Positions 1-30,342 of a stretch of 64,000 nucleotides of DNA are shown piece after piece. This stretch comes from Cellulophaga sp. L1A9 (GTDB lineage: Bacteria; Bacteroidota; Bacteroidia; Flavobacteriales; Flavobacteriaceae). Numbering within the stretch: position 1 is the first letter of the stretch; every line of letters starts with the position of its first letter. The notes under the pieces were generated by a model. The model was given only the letters and a program-made list of their open reading frames with translations. It was not told the origin of the DNA and ran no database searches. The stretch spans positions 3,658,001 to 3,722,000 of the forward strand of contig NZ_CP047027.1 in NCBI RefSeq assembly GCF_009797025.1, written 5' to 3'. Position numbers and translations under genes: made by a program.

Positions 1-9
1 TTGACTAAT

Positions 10-138
10 ATTTGCTAACGGTTTTGTATATGATTTGTTGCGTGGTTAAGCACGTAATTTAGCAAATAAAAATCGAATAGAAAATCCGCGAGGATTTTCG
101 TAAGTAGGCTAGAACTAGCAATAAATTATATACGGTGT
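10..138. repeat. Cassette-associated imperfect palindrome 1 (left part)
   Basis: Left arm GTATATGATTTGTTGC (about 26-41) is complementary, with few mismatches, to GCAATAAATTATATAC near 118-133. An inner hairpin GAAAATCC/GGATTTTC lies at about 80-100. The right arm breaks off after CGGTGT at 138, where a group II intron begins; whatever remains of the arm follows the intron at 844. It belongs to the same class as the elements at 2662 and 4545. The outer boxes resemble, but do not equal, the RYYYAAC/GTTRRRY boxes of integron attC sites. Confidence 0.6.
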
Positions 139-843
139 GTGTGCCCAGCATGGGCATCTTTTGATTTACTGAAAGGTAAATAATTAATCTAGAGGGTGCA
201 AGTCCCTTATGGGCAGGTGTAACGCCCTGAAGCATTAGTAAGCTGCAAGGTTGCTAGTTGTGAGACTAGGACTAAAGGAAGCAGGACTACAAAACTCGGT
301 ACTGACGAACACTTTTTTGTGCTGTTTTACGTAGTAAAACCAAATGTCTGGTAGACATTTGAACAAATAAAGCGGTGATGTGGCTGGGAGATATGAGGCA
401 TAATTATCTGGGTAAGCAACCACATCATTGTAATGCCCTAAAGAGTACAAAAATGGTAGTTATGTAGATACGGCAGGGATCGAGAGAAAGAAGATGTTCT
501 TACCTGGGGAGGTCTCTACAACCACGAGTTGGTATAGTAGAGAAGTCAGCAGAGGTCATAGTACTCACGAGAAACGAGTTGCAGCATATCTGCATAGGTC
601 TCACAAGTGAGGAAGGACTGAAAGTAATCCTTTCTGAAATGCCAGATGGAGCATTAATTTTCGTTATTGGGTGACCGATTCCCTAGAAAATTTGTAGCCA
701 TTTGATAAAGTAAGAAATAGTTTTGATTGGTGTAAAGAGCAATTGGAAAGATGGGTTACTAACCGCCGTATACGAGACCCGTATGTACGGTGGTGTGAGA
801 GGCGCACTCCGTTCCTAATTAGGGGCGGAGCCGTCTACTCGAT
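139..843 (+). ncRNA. ORF-less group II intron, copy 1
   Basis: It begins with GTGTGCCC, matching the group II 5' consensus GUGYG. It ends with a domain V hairpin at about 763-793 (CCGCCGTATACG, a short loop region, then CGTATGTACGGTGG), followed by a domain VI stem and the typical CTACTCGAT 3' end with a candidate bulged branch-point A. No open reading frame for a reverse transcriptase/maturase is present on the + strand, so splicing or mobility would need a protein supplied in trans; none is encoded in this window. A second copy at 2854-3558 has the same length and differs at only about 15-20 positions. The intron sits inside the right arm of a palindromic element. Exact ends are inferred from consensus. 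The subclass (IIB-like or other) was not determined. Confidence 0.85.
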
Positions 844-857
844 TGGTTTTAGTTTTT

Positions 858-1316
858 TTATATAACTTCAAATTCTACTTTTCTAATTGCAGAAGTAGGA
901 GCACTTATGGTAATTTTAACATTATCAATTATTGTGGTTGTCTTATGAATATTGTAATTTGTTTTAACCCAATGAACTATGTTTGAAGATATCACACCTT
1001 TATTAACCATTGAAGAAGCAAATTGTATAACTATATCTTGTTCAGTAAAATCAGGATCAATTTTTACACTAATCATAAAATAACTTACATTTTTTGAATC
1101 GGGGCTGATTGCTTTAACGTTGAAATCTCCTCCGCCTCCTTTTTGCTTCCATTGCCATTCGTTAGGTTCAGTCTTTGTAAGTTTAAAACCAAGTTTTGAT
1201 TCAAAACCATAGCTTATTTCTTCTATAGAAAGTTCTGGTATGAAATTATTTTTTTCATTATAACAAGAATAGATAAATAAAGAAAGTGTAAATAGTAATG
1301 TTTTTCTATATTTCAT
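858..1316 (-). CDS. Predicted lipoprotein, cassette cargo gene
   Basis: A 152-residue protein of unknown function. The N-terminus is a basic, hydrophobic signal with a lipobox-like IYSC, so C18 would be lipidated and the protein held in the cell envelope. The mature part has no motif I recognise; a short glycine run (about residues 60-63) is the only low-complexity feature. The stop codon lies 14 bases from the intron that interrupts palindrome 1, and the start lies about 35 bases from a decayed IS481-type element. On the minus strand the order is palindrome 2, insertion sequence, this gene, palindrome 1, so I read it as a single-gene cassette invaded by an IS. Expression may have been lost if the promoter was upstream of the IS. 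Confidence 0.7.
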   Translation of the reverse strand: MKYRKTLLFTLSLFIYSCYNEKNNFIPELSIEEISYGFESKLGFKLTKTEPNEWQWKQKGGGGDFNVKAISPDSKNVSYFMISVKIDPDFTEQDIVIQFASSMVNKGVISSNIVHWVKTNYNIHKTTTIIDNVKITISAPTSAIRKVEFEVI

Positions 1317-1351
1317 TTAATATTGTTTTTTGTAACTATTTTTTAATGTTC

Positions 1352-2650
1352 GTTAAGGGACATGGTTTACACAAGTTAAAGATTAGACTTTACACTAAAT
1401 TAGTTTCTAACCTTGTTGATTGTTGTTTATTTCTAAGATGTTTTTCATCAAAGTAACCTAAAAATACATTTCTATAAAACACTTTCCAAATTCCATTGCC
1501 AAGTTCTTCAATTGCAACGTGTTTACCTTTTAAAGCAGCGGATACATATACCCAATAATAAGATTTCCATCTCACAGCTCCACTTTCTGTTACTTTGAGT
1601 ATTTTATACTTCGTGTCATACTCAAAGTTGGGTATTCTTTCGGGGAAGGGTCTAGTAGAGAAATTATGTATATCAGCAGGTGTTTTCATATCTAAGGCTT
1701 CATGTGGTCTTACGTTATTATATTGTTTTACAAAGTGATTTAAACGTTTTGTTGGGCTTTTAAATCATATGCTGAAGGCTTAGCACAAGCAGCCTTTAAA
1801 TCACGATGCATGCGTTCATGTCTTCCGTTTTGTTGTGGACTAGCAGGATCAGAAAACACAGGACTAATACCTAGTTCAATAAACCAGTAGGAGAGTTGTG
1901 TAAAACGTTGTATTGCCTTACAGAACCAAAAGGGCTACCATTATCTGTGTGTATTTGTTTAGGAATACCATATATTCTAAAAACCCTTTTAAACTCTGCC
2001 TTAGCAGACTTTAAATTTTCTTTATAGTGACCTTTAGCAGAGAATAAAAATCGACTTCTAGAGTCTGCAATTGTTAATGGATGGCAATATATTTTATTAC
2101 CCATTAAGAACTTTCATTTATAGTCAGCACTCCAAACTTCATTACATGATTCAGGGTCAAATATGGGAAGACTGGTCTGACTCTTCTCATCCGTTTTTGC
2201 GGACATACTAATCCGTTTCTTTTAAGTATATTATGAACAGTAACCACAGATGGGGCTTCTTGACTTGAAAGTTCTTTAAACAATAACTCTCTAATTTTTT
2301 TAGCTCCCCAGAGTTTATATTTCTTCTTTAATTTTAAAATACAATCAACGATATTCTCTTTGGTTTCATTGGGATGTTTGCCAGATGCTCTTGAATGCTC
2401 TTTTAGGCCTTCATAACCTTGAGTTTCAAACCGACTTATCAAATTATAAGCCGTTGGTCGAGAGATTTCAAAACTTTTACATAATTCTGTTATAGTATAC
2501 TTTCCTGTACGCCATTCACAAATAAATTCGATTTTTTGCTCCATTGTTGTGTTTACTTTCCAAGGCATGATAATTTGATTTTTATCTCAAATTAACCCTT
2601 GAAAAAGTGTAAACCATGTGCCTTTAACTTTGTAAACGATGTGCCTTTAC
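1352..2650 (-). mobile_element. Decayed IS481-type insertion sequence
   Basis: It contains the remains of one DDE transposase gene (1390-2568, minus strand). Near the left end is ACATGGTTTACAC (1359-1371), and near the right end is the inverted equivalent GTGTAAACCATGT (2607-2619). The right end carries a second, tandem version of the box (TGTAAACGATGTGCC, 2631-2645), as multiple transposase-binding sites would. The exact tips and target duplication were not resolved; the coordinates are estimates. It lies between palindrome 2 and the lipoprotein gene at 858-1316. Confidence 0.65.
1390..2568 (-). pseudogene. IS481-type transposase, broken by frameshifts and a stop
   Basis: Concatenating three frames gives a transposase of about 390 residues. 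The N-terminal part (2568 to about 2170) has an HTH domain with the motif ISRPTAYNLISRF. A DDE/rve core follows, including IHTDNGSPFGSV, then DPASPQQNGRHERMH and YNNVRPHEAL, and a C-terminal part (1689 to 1390). The reading frame is lost by three apparent one-base deletions in homopolymers: near 2164-2168 (G run), near 1917-1919 (A run on the coding strand) and near 1747-1750 (A run). A TGA at 2116-2114 replaces the Trp codon expected in the motif DYKWKFL. The nonsense codon argues for true decay, although all three indels are in runs where sequencing errors occur. A functional product is unlikely. Confidence 0.85.
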
Positions 2651-2661
2651 CATACCCTAAT

Positions 2662-2853
2662 TATGGATAACGTCTCGTGTAAGAAACGTAGGGCAGGTGA
2701 TAAACGATACGTTTCGGATTGGTACTAAGCCAAATATAATATTTTGCTTTTATCTTTTTTCTTGAAAATGCCAAAATTTTATATTTGGCGACTTTATAAA
2801 TAAACACAAACCTTTCGGAAAGCCTAAACCGCCCTATGTTTTTTATGCACTGT
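2662..2853. repeat. Cassette-associated imperfect palindrome 2 (left part)
   Basis: The outer left arm GTGTAAGAAACGTAGGG (about 2677-2693) pairs with CCCTATGTTTTTTATGCAC at 2832-2850. A nested hairpin joins GCCAAATATAATATTTTG (about 2730-2748) to GCCAAAATTTTATATTTGGC (about 2771-2790). The right arm is split by intron copy 2 after CACTGT, and TAGCAATAG resumes at 3559, which restores a GTGTTAGCAA-like end. It shares the internal block GACTTTATAAA...CAAACCTTT with element 3. On the minus strand it lies directly downstream of the gene at 3568-4539. Confidence 0.65.
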
Positions 2854-3558
2854 GTGTGCCCAGCATGGGCATCTTTTGATTTACTGAAAGGTAAATAATT
2901 AATCTAGAGGGTGCAAGTCCCTTATGGGCAGGTGTAACGCCCTGAACCATTAGTAAGCTGCAAGGTTGCTAGTTGTGAGACTAGGACTGAAGGAAGCAGG
3001 ACTACAAAACTCGGTACTGACGAACACTTTTTTGTGCTGTTTTACGTAGTAAAACCAAATGTCTGGTAGACATTTGAACAAATAAAGCGGTGATGTGGCT
3101 GGGAGATAGGAGGCATAATTATCTGGGTAAGCAACCACATCATTGTAACGCCCTAAAGAATACCAAAAAGATAATTATGTAGATACGGCAGTTATTGAGA
3201 GAAAGAAGATGTTCTTACCTGGGGAGATCTCTATAACCACGAGTTGGTATAGTAGAGAAGTCAGCAGAGGTCATAGTACTCACGAGAAACGAGTTGCAGC
3301 ATATCTGCATAGGTCTCACAAGTGAGGAAGGACTGAAAGTAATCCTTTCTGAAATGCCAGATGGAGCATTAATTTTCGTTATTGGGTGACCGATTCCCTA
3401 GAAAATTTGTAGCCATTTGATAAAGTAAGAAATAGTTTTGATTGGTGTAAAGAGCAATTGGAAAGATGGGTTACTAACCGCCGTATACGAGACCCGTATG
3501 TACGGTGGTGTGAGAGGCGCACTCCGTTCCTAATTAGGGGCGGAGCCGTCTACTCGAT
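2854..3558 (+). ncRNA. ORF-less group II intron, copy 2
   Basis: Same length (705 bp) and near-identical sequence to 139-843. It starts GTGTGCCC, has domain V at about 3478-3508, and ends CTACTCGAT. It has no internal reading frame on the intron strand. It is inserted at the position of palindrome 2 that corresponds to the insertion point in palindrome 1. Substitutions cluster around 3149-3195 (a likely peripheral loop), while the 5' end, domain V and domain VI are unchanged. This pattern suggests that both copies were recently functional as ribozymes. Confidence 0.85.
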
Positions 3559-3570
3559 TAGCAATAGTTA
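3559..3570. repeat. Right-arm remainder of palindrome 2
   Basis: TAGCAATAG directly after the intron end completes the right arm of the element at 2662-2853. Removing the intron gives CACTGT joined to TAGCAA, which pairs with the start of the left arm. This short segment overlaps the stop codon of the neighbouring gene. Confidence 0.5.
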
Positions 3571-4539
3571 ATTAATTTTTGTTTCATAATACTTGAAATG
3601 TTTAACCCATTTTTCATTTTCATAAGTTTTTGTATATCCTTTTATAATACAAGTATAGTTGTCACTCCATTTTATTTCCTCAATTTTCCATTTTTTTGAA
3701 TTAAAGCTTTTATATTCTGTTAAGTACATCTTAGGTATTTCTCTTTTTTGTTCATTTATCTTAATAAGACCAATAAAACAAGATTCATCACCTCCATATA
3801 TGAAATTGTAGTAATATATTAAATAATCATTTTTAGGTGAAGAAATAGGTTTTTCTACTGCTCCATCTCCAATTGAAATTATATCATAAATATTGTCAGT
3901 TATACTGTCAATTAAAATAAGTTGTCCAAAACCTAAGTAATCAGACGTAAAATTATTTTGTACTGCATAAAAACCAAATTCAGGATAATAACCTTTATAC
4001 TCACTTCCACTCCAACCACCATTTTCTTTATAATCTTTATAGATTTTAAACGTAAAACTCTGATTTTTAGTTTTAATGGTAAAATGTGAATCGTTTTTTT
4101 CTATTTTTTTTATTTCTACAGGTTTAATGGAAAAAGTCTTATTAAATTCATCTTCAGTTATTTCTTCAAACTCTAATTTTGGAAGATTATTATATTTGTC
4201 AATATGACCAATTGAAATATAAGGTTTTTCTAATTTTAAAAAACCATTAAAAAGATAACCGTAGTTATTGTTTGTTTTAATCCCTTCAAATTGAGATAAA
4301 TCCACTTTAATCCATTCACCTGAAATAGAAGTTTTATTGTCAAAAATTGTATCCTTTTTTTTGTTAGATTTTATAGTTTCTAATTTTGTGCCGAATAAAA
4401 TTTTTCCAATAATTTCAGATTTTATACTTGATTCTTTTCTGATGTTTAAACCGCTTTCAGCAGTTACTCTATATATTTCTTGACTATATGTTTTAGTCAT
4501 AAAAAATAATATAATAGTAAATGAGATAATTTTTTTCAT
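3568..4539 (-). CDS. Exported protein with N-terminal SH3-like domain
   Basis: A 323-residue protein starting at the ATG at 4539; an upstream in-frame TTG (4557) falls inside the palindrome and is less likely. Residues 1-19 form a signal peptide ending TYSQ. Residues about 22-95 (YRVTAESGLNIRKESS, then IIGKILFG) match the bacterial SH3 (SH3b) fold, often found in cell-wall or envelope proteins. The rest is rich in aromatic and charged residues and I do not recognise it. The gene fits exactly between palindrome 3 (its end is 6 bases upstream of the ATG) and palindrome 2 (starting beside the stop codon), the geometry of a single-gene cassette. Its function is unknown. Confidence 0.75.
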   Translation of the reverse strand: MKKIISFTIILFFMTKTYSQEIYRVTAESGLNIRKESSIKSEIIGKILFGTKLETIKSNKKKDTIFDNKTSISGEWIKVDLSQFEGIKTNNNYGYLFNGFLKLEKPYISIGHIDKYNNLPKLEFEEITEDEFNKTFSIKPVEIKKIEKNDSHFTIKTKNQSFTFKIYKDYKENGGWSGSEYKGYYPEFGFYAVQNNFTSDYLGFGQLILIDSITDNIYDIISIGDGAVEKPISSPKNDYLIYYYNFIYGGDESCFIGLIKINEQKREIPKMYLTEYKSFNSKKWKIEEIKWSDNYTCIIKGYTKTYENEKWVKHFKYYETKIN

Positions 4540-4544
4540 AATTA

Positions 4545-4749
4545 TTGCCAACACCAAAGCTAAGATTAGTGCGGAACCAAGGTAACTGTAAAGTTTCCGT
4601 CTTCGCGCTAAGACAAAACTTTTTGTTTGCGTTTATTTTTTTGTTTTTAAAATGTCAAATCAAACAGATTTGACGACCTTATAAAAATAGACAAACCTTT
4701 TAATTAAACACCAAACCGTCGCATTAATTATAGGTTTTGTTGTAAGACG
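4545..4749. repeat. Cassette-associated imperfect palindrome 3 (intact)
   Basis: Outer arms: TTGCCAACA and CTAAGATTAGTGCGG on the left (4545-4574), and CCGTCGCATTAATTATAG with GTTTTGTTGTAAGACG on the right (about 4715-4749). An inner short hairpin AAATC/GATTT lies near 4660-4675. The internal block GACCTTATAAA...CAAACCTTT matches that of palindrome 2. This copy has no intron. On the minus strand it ends 6 bases before the start codon of the exported-protein gene. Confidence 0.6.
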
Positions 4750-4902
4750 TTTTTAATTTTTTTTTACAATCTGAGTTACATTGTGTTGCTAAGATATGAC
4801 TAAGATCGTAAGCAACAGCTAAGCTTTTAGACGACTCAAAGTTTATAGCCTAAAGAAGAAATTAGTTGTTTTCTGCTTCAGTAGCTCGTTTAGAGGCTTT
4901 TT

Positions 4903-5673: not shown

Positions 5674-6130
5674 CTTGAACTGACAATGCGTTTTTAATTT
5701 GAATGCTGTTGTCACTTCGAGTGAATTTGAAGCTTTTTCTTGCTTTAAATTAGTATCGAGAAGTATTCTTGTCACTGAGGTGATTCACTACTATTTTTGT
5801 TTGGCTAGGCTACACAAAAATCACTCGAACTGACAATGCGTTTTTTTGAATACTGTTGTCACTTCGAGTGAATTTCAAGCTTTTCCTTGCTTTAAATTAG
5901 TATCGAGAAGCATTCTTGTCACTGAGGTGGTTCGCTACAATTTTTGTTTCGTTGCCCTGCACAAAAACCACTCGAACTGACATTGCGTTTTTTTGAATGC
6001 TGTTGTCACTTCGAGTGAATTTGAAGCTTTTTCTTGCTTTAAATTAGTATCGAGAAGCATTCTTGTCAATGAGGTGGTTCGATACTATTGTCGTTTGACT
6101 AGGCTATACAAACATCACTTGAACTGATAA
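5674..6130. repeat. Three tandem copies of a ~147-150 bp repeat
   Basis: The phrase GAACTGACA(A/T)TGCG recurs at about 5677, 5827 and 5974, and a partial GAACTGAT starts again near 6121, giving periods of about 150, 147 and 147 bp. Each unit contains GTCACTTCGAGTGA (itself an imperfect palindrome), TATCGAGAAG, CTTGTCA(C/A)TGAGGTG and AGGCTA. It is non-coding on both strands as far as I can see and fills most of the 630-bp gap between the small Cys-rich gene and the gene at 6223. The GTCACTTCGAGTG core resembles dispersed intergenic repeats common in flavobacteria. Its function is unknown. Confidence 0.85.
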
Positions 6131-6222
6131 TTTTCTTGGAATTGGTGCTTATTTCTAAGGTCCAATTTTTGAAATTACCATCAACAAGTAGGAGGGTAGG
6201 CTTATCCGCTTTTATCTAAAAA

Positions 6223-12016: not shown

Positions 12017-12856
12017 TTATTCTTTAATACCTTTTTTAATTTCACTTAAAATACCTTGAACTTCCTGAAGAGATTTCTTCATATTCAAAGCAAGATTAAT
12101 TTCGGTGGTGTTTGCTTTTGGTTTTTCGAGTATAGCATCTTCTAAAATGTTCATAATGGTTTGGTGTAATTTTTTATTCGAGGCTAAAATTGGTTTCATT
12201 TTTCTTCCTACAATTCTAGCTGCGGCTTTGGTCATTTCAAAATTATCATCAAAAAGGTCTAAATGGTTCTCATAAGCTTCACTTTCATAGAAATGCCAGC
12301 CATGATTCAATAGCAATGAAATGTCTTCTAAATCTTTAGTCCTATCTTTTTTATCACTCCAAGAAACTAATTTAAGAATGATAAGCCCAACCACAGGAGT
12401 TGTTGGTAATGAAAAACCCGCTTCCTTAATTAGGACTTCTTCAACTTGTTCACCAACCTCTTTGAAACCTAAAACAGATAGTTCCATATCTCTTTGGTCA
12501 AAATTTATTGTGTGATTTTGTTCTATTTCACCATAAGGCAACAGGTCTAATATAGTATTGGTTTTATCATACAATAACCGATATACTTCACTAGTTTTTT
12601 TGAACCCTTTACTACACAATTCCTCGAACAACATATTATATTTATCAATGTCCGGTACCATTACGGCAAAATCTATATTAGCAGTATTTCTTGTAGGTTT
12701 AATACCTATACGATAAAGTTGAACATCTCTCGCATTTGCGCCTATTAGATAATAGGTAATATTATTTGCTGCGAAGACCTCCTCTAAAATTTGATACACT
12801 TCTCCGTGATTAGCAAAAGAATAATCTTTATAAGTTAGGTTTGATATACTCATCAA
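12017..12856 (-). CDS. AbiEii-type nucleotidyltransferase toxin
   Basis: A 279-residue protein. The N-terminal half resembles the AbiEii/MenT nucleotidyltransferase fold: YYLIGANARD (GG/GA-type motif) followed by RNTANIDFAV, where the T-x-D-x-D pattern is represented by NID. The motif TKDLEDISLLL further on is common to this family. AbiEii toxins are type IV toxin-antitoxin toxins that use NTP and cause reversible growth arrest and phage abortive infection. The start overlaps the upstream antitoxin gene by 29 bases, so the pair is translationally coupled. The C-terminal ~70 residues are helical. Target and activity are not visible from sequence. Confidence 0.8.
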   Translation of the reverse strand: MMSISNLTYKDYSFANHGEVYQILEEVFAANNITYYLIGANARDVQLYRIGIKPTRNTANIDFAVMVPDIDKYNMLFEELCSKGFKKTSEVYRLLYDKTNTILDLLPYGEIEQNHTINFDQRDMELSVLGFKEVGEQVEEVLIKEAGFSLPTTPVVGLIILKLVSWSDKKDRTKDLEDISLLLNHGWHFYESEAYENHLDLFDDNFEMTKAAARIVGRKMKPILASNKKLHQTIMNILEDAILEKPKANTTEINLALNMKKSLQEVQGILSEIKKGIKE

Positions 12857-13817
12857 AGATTATTTTAGCGGTTTCTATGTTTCTGTCATTACCGCTGTAT
12901 ACTAGTTCGGCGTAGACTAATAATGTATTTACAGCGATTTTACCTTTAGTTGTCTGAAATTCAATACTTTTTGGTTTCCAAAAAGGTTCGTAAACACTAA
13001 TATTGCCGTCTTTATCTGGGACCATTTTAAAATCTCTCATTAGATTTTCTTTCTCTGTTGTAAATAGAGAGTATTGTGAAGAGTATAAATAATTTGTAAT
13101 AAGTTTTGCGCCATACTCCCCTCCCCAACAGCTTTCTATACCAGGATCGATTTCATTTATTTTAAATTGCTCGGAATTTATAAATATATAGCTACCTATT
13201 TTGTGAGCAGGTAAGATTTTTTCATTAACTAAAGTAACCCACTTCTCTAGTAATTCCTCTCGTCTTACCAATTGATATTTTTTTTCAGTATTCTGTTTAA
13301 CTGCAAAATCTTCATTCAAAAGACCGTTTATTGTTTTACTCACACTGCCTAATGATACTTTGCTTATTTCAGCTAAATGTCGATAAGTAGCATTTATTAG
13401 TTCAGGATTTTGAAGTAAATGAAATAGTATTTGTCCTCCTGATGGAGTAAAAACTTCTGAATATTCATTGTATACTGGTTTGGCGTTGTTTTTTTCAACG
13501 TATAGTTTAAGGTTGTCAAGATTTAAAAAGGCATTGCCAAAACTATCTATATAATTTATTTTTTTAGCTTTTAATGTCTCTTTTGCTTTAGGAGTTATGT
13601 ATTTTGATGCTACTAAAACAGGAAGTTCTTGACTTCTAGTTTTTTCAAAATGGGAAATATTTTGTGGTCTTACTTCGTTTTTAAACTCTACAAATACGCG
13701 CTCTCCATCTATAGAATAAATTTTTTCAGAGGTTTCTTTACGATTTTCGTGGTAGAGCACTTCGGTATTAAAACCAAGGGCTTCAAAAAAATCATTTAAG
13801 TAAATTGTACTTAGCAT
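12828..13817 (-). CDS. AbiEi-type antitoxin / transcriptional repressor
   Basis: A 329-residue protein, first gene of the toxin-antitoxin pair. The middle part (about residues 130-190) is a winged helix (YRHLAEISKVSLGSVSKTINGLL). The C-terminal part (WGGEYGAKLITNYLYSSQY, then VYAELVYSGNDRNIETA) matches the AbiEi antitoxin region. AbiEi proteins neutralise AbiEii without binding it and repress their own operon through inverted repeats. A perfect 19-bp palindrome lies just 18 bases upstream of this start, consistent with autoregulation. The N-terminal ~100 residues (FVEFKNEVRPQNI) are additional and look like a restriction-endonuclease-like fold, which I cannot confirm. Confidence 0.8.
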   Translation of the reverse strand: MLSTIYLNDFFEALGFNTEVLYHENRKETSEKIYSIDGERVFVEFKNEVRPQNISHFEKTRSQELPVLVASKYITPKAKETLKAKKINYIDSFGNAFLNLDNLKLYVEKNNAKPVYNEYSEVFTPSGGQILFHLLQNPELINATYRHLAEISKVSLGSVSKTINGLLNEDFAVKQNTEKKYQLVRREELLEKWVTLVNEKILPAHKIGSYIFINSEQFKINEIDPGIESCWGGEYGAKLITNYLYSSQYSLFTTEKENLMRDFKMVPDKDGNISVYEPFWKPKSIEFQTTKGKIAVNTLLVYAELVYSGNDRNIETAKIIFDEYIKPNL

Positions 13818-13835
13818 TTGTTCAACTATTTTACA

Positions 13836-13854
13836 TGTTCATGTTACATGAACA
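13836..13854. promoter_or_regulatory. Perfect palindrome, probable AbiEi operator
   Basis: TGTTCATGT-T-ACATGAACA: 9-bp arms around one central base, 18 bases upstream of the antitoxin start codon. AbiEi antitoxins repress their own promoters by binding inverted repeats, so this is the expected type of site. Confidence 0.65.
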
Positions 13855-13884
13855 GTCAAATATAATGAAAATATACGATTCAAG

Positions 13885-29208: not shown

Positions 29209-30342
29209 TTAAATTTCTAAATCTAGTTCAGGAATCAGATTAGCGGCCTCCTTCATTTTTTCATCAATAATCTTAGTGTAGATTTCTGTTGTACGGATTT
29301 CTTTATGTCCTAAACGTTTCGATACTGTATAAATATCTGCACCGTTCTCTAACAGTAGTACCGCATTGGTATGTCTTGCGCTATGAAAAGTAATGTGCTT
29401 TGTAATTCCGGCTTTCATGCACCACCTTAAAATCTCGGTATTGTAAACAGCACCGTATTTTAGGCCTTTAAATACCCTATCACTTTCGTTGACTCGCTTT
29501 CCTAGCAGTTCTCTGGATTGCTCTGAAACGTAAAGATATTCGAGTCCGTCCGTTTTCTTCTGTCTAAATATAATTCTAGAGCCTGTATCTTCGTCTCGAA
29601 CCTCCGACCATTTTAATTTGTCAATATCGCTCCATCGTAAACCTGTAAGACAGCTAAAAATAAAAGCATTCTTTAGTACGGGGTACTTACACTCGGCTTG
29701 TGTCATTGCCTGTAATTCGGAATAGGTTAAATATTCTCTGGTAGATTCGCCCTGCTCAAAACCTTTAACTGAGCGCAATACATTTTCTTCCAAATAGTTT
29801 TCGGTATAGGCTTCCCGTAAGGCTGCTTTAAACTTATTGAAATAAGTGTACTTGGAATTTTGAGATAGGGGTGTGCCACTCTTGGTTTTGGCTTTAGTGT
29901 TCAGATATCGTTTAAACCCTTTGACAAAATCAGTATCAATATCCTTTAGCTGTTTATGGGCGGGACAATATTTTTCGATATGTTTTAGTGCTGCATCCCA
30001 ATTACCATAATTCGCTTTGGTTTCAAAGCGGTCTTCTTTAAGCTGCTCATAGTACTCTAAAAAGGTTACTTCTCCTTTTTTATTGTTCTTGATTTTGTAT
30101 TTCCCTTGAATATATTCAGCCTTTCTTATCGCTAGTATGTTTTCGGCCAATTGAAGTGTTTCTTTATTCTTTCTTTTTTCCTCTGCATTTGCGGGATTAT
30201 CAAAAACATACTGTTTTAGGTATTCAAATTTTCTAAGGTGCTTTTTGACCCCGTTTTTATCAATGCGATACCCATTATAGAATTCAAGAAATAAACTAGA
30301 CTTTCCGTTTTTTAATTTTTTCTTCTTTAGATTGATTTTCAT
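29209..30342 (-). CDS. int: Tyrosine recombinase / integrase of the mobile island
   Basis: A 377-residue site-specific integrase. The N-terminal arm-binding domain (1-80) and a SAM-like core-binding domain (about 92-190) precede the catalytic domain: R236 (SCLTGLRWSDI), H320 and R323 (HSARH), H346 (LGHKE) and the nucleophile Y355 (EIYTKI). It would integrate and excise the island. Its 5' side faces the 3' end of mnmE, 193 bases away, with repeated AGGTGTAA boxes between, the usual arrangement of an integrase next to its attachment site. Confidence 0.92.
   Translation of the reverse strand: MKINLKKKKLKNGKSSLFLEFYNGYRIDKNGVKKHLRKFEYLKQYVFDNPANAEEKRKNKETLQLAENILAIRKAEYIQGKYKIKNNKKGEVTFLEYYEQLKEDRFETKANYGNWDAALKHIEKYCPAHKQLKDIDTDFVKGFKRYLNTKAKTKSGTPLSQNSKYTYFNKFKAALREAYTENYLEENVLRSVKGFEQGESTREYLTYSELQAMTQAECKYPVLKNAFIFSCLTGLRWSDIDKLKWSEVRDEDTGSRIIFRQKKTDGLEYLYVSEQSRELLGKRVNESDRVFKGLKYGAVYNTEILRWCMKAGITKHITFHSARHTNAVLLLENGADIYTVSKRLGHKEIRTTEIYTKIIDEKMKEAANLIPELDLEI

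Follow-up and report, generated by a model that had tools for sequence, protein, structure and literature searches.

Our study examined a 64,000-nt stretch of the Cellulophaga sp. L1A9 genome (contig NZ_CP047027.1, positions 3,658,001 to 3,722,000), hereafter the window, from a host genome that is one contig of 5.07 Mb. At the left end of the window, three palindromic elements lie beside single genes of the minus strand, and the original prediction, made from the sequence of the window, had read this arrangement as a cassette-like array. We find that the window holds an integrase-less fragment of an integron-like system other than that of the integron integrase IntI; the earlier finding was right in kind, and the system is larger than first stated. 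All three palindromes are present where they had been placed, and their limits were defined as AAC...GTT. The features are as follows (window coordinates, with the strand in brackets; a slash marks a point of insertion).

10–16 (+): 7-nt box (N7′) on the start-codon side of the cassette left of the window; 7/7 complementary to the box that follows the intron copy of L031, a neighbouring host stretch
17–138 (+), completed by T844: element 1, attC-like hairpin of the short class, its right GT/T box interrupted
139–843 (+): group II intron copy 1, 705 nt, without a protein gene, on the strand opposite the cassette genes; insertion at TGT/T
845–851 (+): 7-nt box GGTTTTA of the cassette with the gene at 858–1316; partner box not found in the window
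858–1316 (−): cassette gene, 152 aa, of exported or lipoprotein appearance; no Pfam match at E≤0.01
1355–2624 (−): insertion sequence (IS) with imperfect 27-nt inverted ends and a broken rve/HTH transposase, sitting in the cassette
2669–2853 (+), completed by T3559: element 2, attC-like hairpin of the long class, its right GT/T box interrupted
2854–3558 (+): group II intron copy 2, 705 nt, without a protein gene; insertion at TGT/T
3560–3566 (+): 7-nt box AGCAATA, 6/7 complementary to 4543–4549
3568–4539 (−): cassette gene, 323 aa, of exported appearance, with an SH3_3 domain
4543–4549 (+): 7-nt box TATTGCC, the other end of the cassette with the gene at 3568–4539
4550–4741 (+): element 3, attC-like hairpin of the long class, the final element ahead of ordinary genes

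The window contains one intact cassette, that with the gene at 3568–4539 (boxes matched 6/7), which fits between elements 2 and 3 as had been described, its stop codon lying 1 base from the box at 3560–3566 and its start codon 10 bases from the AAC of element 3. Besides the IS-broken cassette with the gene at 858–1316, it also contains the terminal part of a further cassette, the gene of which is immediately beyond the left edge (boxes matched 7/7). The sequence block noted as common to elements 2 and 3 (GAC.TTATAAA...CAAACCTTT) is real, with 85 % identity over 33 nt. The alternation of elements with single genes held for elements 2 and 3 but not simply for elements 1 and 2, which are separated by the gene at 858–1316 plus the IS at 1355–2624. 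Position 3559 had been rightly assigned to element 2, but the reason had been missed, this base being the 3′ exon of a 705-nt group II intron. Both introns and the IS had been overlooked, as had a recombinase outside the window. Element 1 was not matched by the element profile described below at the cut used; its layout is the same and its size falls in the 120–127 nt class. The element cluster runs on leftward past the edge of the window into L031, as had been suspected, and no integrase lies beside the cluster in the window. The nearest tyrosine-recombinase match is approximately 25 kb away. Together, the window and L031 have at least two sites and no adjacent integrase, which is the composition of a cluster of attC sites lacking integrases (CALIN), although these sites are attC-like only.

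Element copies, cassette ends and hairpin

The elements are not confined to the window. Using element 3 as a blastn query, 41 places in the host genome were found at E≤1, 28 of which reached E≤0.002, and an iterated nhmmer profile gave 73 matches in 325 kb comprising the window and host stretches, with some elements matching twice, which bears out the view that the palindromes are not due to chance. Twenty-nine profile matches share a strand within 42 kb (3,859,677–3,901,933); two of these represent parts of a single element. This array ends approximately 0.8 kb from a tyrosine recombinase gene, with one gene between.

Read in the sense of its gene, the gene segment starts GTT-N7 and ends N7′-AAC, where N7′ is the reverse complement of N7. 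A perfect complementary run of at least 5 nt was present in 21 of the 46 own-genome intervals with readable ends, and was exactly 7 nt long in 19 of these; within the same element the count was 1/54, over all pairings it was 98/3309 (3 %), and permutation gave 0/10 000. The position after the box is also fixed, with no selection applied, being T in 50/57 left ends and G in 46/59 right ends (element orientation). The original prediction was correct that the boxes are not canonical, the R boxes RYYYAAC/GTTRRRY being absent, but it missed the rule that replaces them: YAAC/GTTR alone is conserved, and the adjoining 7 nt, like the further positions generally, vary, being specific to the cassette and complementary between its ends. 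As the complementary box belongs to the cassette rather than to the element in the array, the whole 10-bp box would exist only in a closed circle.

Searching by this end rule yielded 102 cassette units across 487 kb of loci from the host and its relatives, compared to 1–4 in each of five block shuffles. The longest open reading frame was in the sense direction in 95/101 units and filled a median 91 % of the gene segment, so that many copies flank single genes, as had been anticipated. Shuffles, permutation, upstream regions and other recombinase loci served as the real controls for units. The cassettes are therefore compact, with one reading frame, one direction and complementary ends, as in integrons, with circles as the predicted mobile form.

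The extent of the moving unit is indicated by one cassette present six times in the host. All copies agree fully (100 %) in the first 60 nt counted from GTT, and show 98–100 % identity in the final 60 nt leading up to the GTT that lies past the element; outside the cassette, identity is 44–56 % on the right and 43–79 % on the left, where the neighbouring elements are related to one another. Because the copies agree as far as GTT and differ beyond it, the moving unit appears to comprise both gene and element, with the cut at GTT. A cassette with box ACCACAC, present in six copies in the examined host stretches (the G000 arrays), was also seen in relatives (L083, L085 and L096), and is approximately 94 % identical between the host and relative G013.

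RNAalifold analysis of 43 elements gave a stem of 15 pairs, with two-sided compensatory changes at 12 of them. Cells changed on both sides numbered 138, against 52.9±5.1 in shuffled data (0/500), and the covariation score was 0.568 for the true stem partners versus 0.016–0.121 for slid partners. When folded with DNA energies, the strand opposite the genes was the more stable in 56/59 sites in circle form and 51/59 in array form. Stability was greater in circle form than in array form (Wilcoxon p 3.5e-11), as the extra box would lead one to expect. Two size classes, 120–127 nt and 182–192 nt, were seen among elements that are chained to a following unit. Taken as folding predictions, these results give the elements an attC-type architecture with a covarying stem and greater bottom-strand stability.

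Array-adjacent recombinase and attI-like site

The recombinase beside the host array (3,902,747–3,903,873; 12747–13873 of stretch L035) is split over two reading frames. It is the only array-type copy found in the host genome and, as this copy is frameshifted, the host arrays may now be frozen. In relative G013, the recombinase is intact and its N-terminal piece is 95 % identical to that of the host; the recombinase of the Cellulophaga baltica type strain (376 aa) is likewise intact. The recombinase carries an extra N-terminal domain of approximately 100 residues. Strong matches to the N-terminal piece were found in 15 genomes besides the host when the host and 59 relatives were searched, and the domain was present in 36 genomes, counting the host, of a sample of 295 Bacteroidia. 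Its catalytic part is closest to XerA-type models and to PDB 4a8e.

This recombinase lies outside the family defined by the IntI-specific insertion. Four intact relatives scored 185–206 bits against TIGR02249 (IntI), where the cut-off is 265; no more than 20 % of 33 array-type recombinases had residues in the two IntI blocks of 31 and 9 columns (~40 columns in all); and the stretch of the IntI insertion in the IntI4 structure 2a3v was left unmatched. No IntI over the curated cut-off was found in the host genome, so that the earlier statement that intI is absent is true in the strict sense. These data bear on the alternative of a conventional integron or CALIN with merely degenerate attC sites, its IntI having escaped detection or being located elsewhere. 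Nearly all DNA-level features are integron-like, including an end rule common to IntI integrons, Bacteroidota are listed among the integron-bearing phyla in passages of PMC8618304 and PMC9668308, and some relatives of the recombinase are already named 'site-specific tyrosine recombinase/integron integrase' by NCBI. However, this name probably comes from NF040815, a XerA-type model whose cut-off of 220 bits was just reached (220–228 bits), and IntI over cut-off was detected in 84 of the 296 genomes of a phylum sample, only one of which belongs to the host's class. Together with the low IntI scores, the unfilled blocks and the extra N-terminal domain, this makes an ordinary integron improbable, although it is the alternative that survives best.

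The array-type recombinase is accompanied by a candidate attI site. Across 17 relative loci, element profile matches lay beside the recombinase in 12, and a hairpin, perfect or imperfect, followed by GTT was identified by eye 3′ of the recombinase stop in 14 of 17 loci. The first cassette begins at the GTT of this site in 11/17 loci, host included. A scan of named genomes gave 45 loci, of which 42 were examined and 32 had at least 900 nt downstream; the first cassette lay at the attI GTT in 19 of these 32, and the 42 loci contained 95 units downstream versus 0 in the upstream control. Unit-bearing hosts include Maribacter, Gelidibacter, Winogradskyella, Aquimarina, Lacinutrix and Arenibacter, as well as metagenome-assembled genomes (MAGs) named Cytophagaceae and Marinoscillum; the locus of a Saprospiraceae MAG had no cassette units. 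Phylum-wide, at least one unit was found in 12 of 17 further recombinase loci, with 34 units in total. By comparison, no units were found downstream of the host's other tyrosine-recombinase matches (0 in 88 kb for seven loci) or of the tyrosine recombinase in the window itself (0 in 29 kb), and an IntI locus with 15 kb downstream had no units of the array-type rule.

Pairs of attI-like sites were then informative as to cargo. In 14/14 pairs, identity was 88–100 % in the 40 nt up to GTT and 47–54 % in the next 100 nt (random, 50 %); the pairs were chosen by hand among 30 located sites, not all are independent and one lies within a single genome. This pattern is what different cassettes inserted at one fixed point would leave, and it matches the variable cargo between relatives that had been forecast, as the recombinase beside the host array and at the relative loci matches the forecast of a tyrosine recombinase nearby. 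As in integrons, an attI-like site lies beside the recombinase gene, with insertion at that site predicted.

Two further recombinase observations were made. A tyrosine recombinase at 29269–29730 of the window (392-aa frame) has no N-terminal domain of the array type and no cassette units downstream. Two mobilizable plasmids, of Pontibacter kalidii (L147) and Rufibacter tibetensis (L148), carry an approximately 40 % identical full-length recombinase, then short genes, with much shorter hairpins (about 50–60 nt) between several of them; these are possible plasmid-borne forms.

Interpretation and relation to integrons

We consider the palindromes to be the hairpin elements of a cassette array, likely assembled by a non-IntI tyrosine recombinase inserting circular single-gene cassettes at an attI-like site, and assign this reading a probability of roughly 0.9. 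In such a system, the recombinase would act on the folded bottom strand and cut within GTT/AAC, and would excise cassette circles and insert them at the attI-like site next to its own gene, the extra N-terminal domain reading the hairpin in place of the IntI insertion. Both possibilities raised at the outset, an undescribed Bacteroidetes cassette system and an integrase-less cluster, hold: the window cluster has no integrase beside it, and in the same genome an array of 29 matches lies one gene from a tyrosine recombinase.

Several observations weigh against this interpretation. Each mechanistic step is drawn from sequence, whether recombination itself, the choice of strand or the part played by the N-terminal domain. 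No end match was seen in 25 of the 46 own-genome intervals; an IS at the right box explains five, and the rest are only partly explained. There was no unit in 5 of the 17 phylum-wide recombinase loci and no first cassette under the strict rule in 13 of the 32 named loci, and the plasmid arrays gave few strict units (Pontibacter 1, Rufibacter 2, Persicobacter none). Relative G026 was not matched by the element profile, yet has 7 units by the end rule. The array recombinases are not resolved as one clade apart from IntI in a 40-row tree, and the host's own copy spans two frames. As regards controls, antisense unit counts test only the asymmetry of the A/C flanks, because the end pair is itself palindromic, and two Xer-like loci of the phylum scan, with only 205 and 265 nt downstream, are void as controls.

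The gene segment could instead be a transposon-like unit with 10-bp terminal inverted repeats (GTT-N7...N7′-AAC), the palindromes serving as its fixed targets. The ends of the gene segment are indeed inverted repeats, but their sequence varies by cassette, and the six copies of one cassette carry the element along, with homology reaching the GTT beyond it; we therefore hold this explanation to be very unlikely. Palindromes scattered between genes without a cassette function, akin to repetitive extragenic palindromes (REP), bacterial interspersed mosaic elements (BIME) or terminators, would account for many copies per genome and for hairpins directly 3′ of stop codons, but hardly for one-way arrays beside a recombinase, a conserved attI-like hairpin, complementarity that joins the ends of gene segments and not those of elements, or homology between copies and between attI pairs that ends at GTT, and this idea has next to no credibility. 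The elements are neither unique to this locus, nor scattered without genes between them, nor ordinary terminators.

The proposed non-IntI cassette system shares with integrons its single-gene cassettes in one direction, AAC/GTT hairpin sites, spacer, covarying stem and predicted bottom-strand bias, as well as a recombinase and attI at one end and complementary cassette ends. The attC spacer, extrahelical bases and bottom-strand choice are described in part of PMC2727003. In a positive control, end complementarity of 6–11 nt was clear in two of seven IntI loci (L210 and L211), the others showing little or having only been counted; as IntI loci share the end rule, we regard it as integron cassette logic and make no claim of uniqueness. 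What is particular to the present system is a box length of exactly 7 with fixed flanks: its box is 7 nt plus GTT with fixed A/C flanks, whereas the checked IntI loci had 6 to 11. It further differs in its element sizes (~120–127 and ~182–192 nt), in a conserved hairpin just before the GTT of attI, and in a recombinase with the extra N-terminal domain and without the IntI insertion, which a passage of PMC8138268 calls essential to the function of integrons, albeit incompletely conserved in an integron-like subgroup. The location of attI downstream of the recombinase gene is not a difference, as attI also lies downstream of intI in archaeal integrons in the portion of PMC9668308 that treats them. 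The window cluster resembles a CALIN in having elements and genes without an adjoining recombinase, but its sites belong to a non-IntI system, whose recombinase is 240 kb away and frameshifted; the tyrosine-recombinase match closer to the cluster lacks the N-terminal domain. With XerA, XerC and XerD the array recombinase shares the XerA-like catalytic part noted above, and it differs from them in its extra N-terminal domain and in the array and attI-like hairpin beside its gene; the seven other tyrosine-recombinase loci of the host have 0 units. A full-text literature search found no description of the present system, and in a passage of the IntegronFinder 2 paper (PMC9024848) Salinibacter is the only member of Bacteroidetes proper named as having a complete integron.

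A broader proposal, to which we give even odds, is that the Bacteroidia have a second integron type, which has run alongside IntI integrons throughout the class. Its Xer-like recombinase would never have had the IntI insertion; a new N-terminal domain, with a fold like that of HARP or XPB damage-recognition domains, would read the bottom-strand hairpin; the 10-bp self-complementary box, whole only in the circle, would favour capture over loss; and the system would have its own homing introns, IS and plasmid forms. Recognition of integrons relies on IntI and, if such a system exists, IntI-based searches overlook a widespread route of gene exchange in Bacteroidia. Its scale would be that of the N-terminal domain, found in 36/295 Bacteroidia genomes, with full-length relatives on mobilizable plasmids. 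The need for the IntI insertion in reading folded single-stranded sites would be put in doubt, and the origin of integrons could be tested through a comparison of the two types of recombinase acting on one kind of site.

Introns, insertion sequences and cargo

Each of the two 705-nt window introns contains a match to Rfam RF02001, and the copies are 98 % identical over the compared stretch. Both lie on the strand opposite to that of the genes, each dividing the right GT/T box of its element (1 or 2). Among near-complete host copies, insertion was at TGT/T of the box in 5/5, and three of these had TTGT/T. Group IIC-attC introns insert at TTGT/T of the bottom strand in the opposite orientation, as described in part of PMC7923331. 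The window introns are alike in having entered the right box at TGT/T, in the bottom strand of the cassette and opposite the genes, but the host introns lack an intron-encoded protein and their family is assigned by RF02001 only. Judging from their position, group II introns appear to home on the same box as the cassette system. A fifth intron copy was seen within a very short element (~45 nt; L049), which suggests a further size class in the host genome.

An IS was located by its exact end in the examined host stretches, and 7/7 copies lay at the same point of the box. We take its transposase to be IS1182-like.

The 86 cassette proteins are mostly unrelated (mean column identity 5 %). Among the Pfam matches listed (25 of 70 families) are Imm33, Gp49-like, TPR, LRR, a protein-kinase domain and a beta-lactamase-like fold, and three cargo members matching rve are IS transposases located in cassettes. 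PADLOC matches include the AriAB, PD-T4-6 and PDC-S32 models, which are family names with predicted functions.

Elsewhere in the window, three head-to-tail repeats of 147 nt lie between genes at 5698–6138, 88–90 % like the first, with inverted GTCACTTCGAGTGA motifs.

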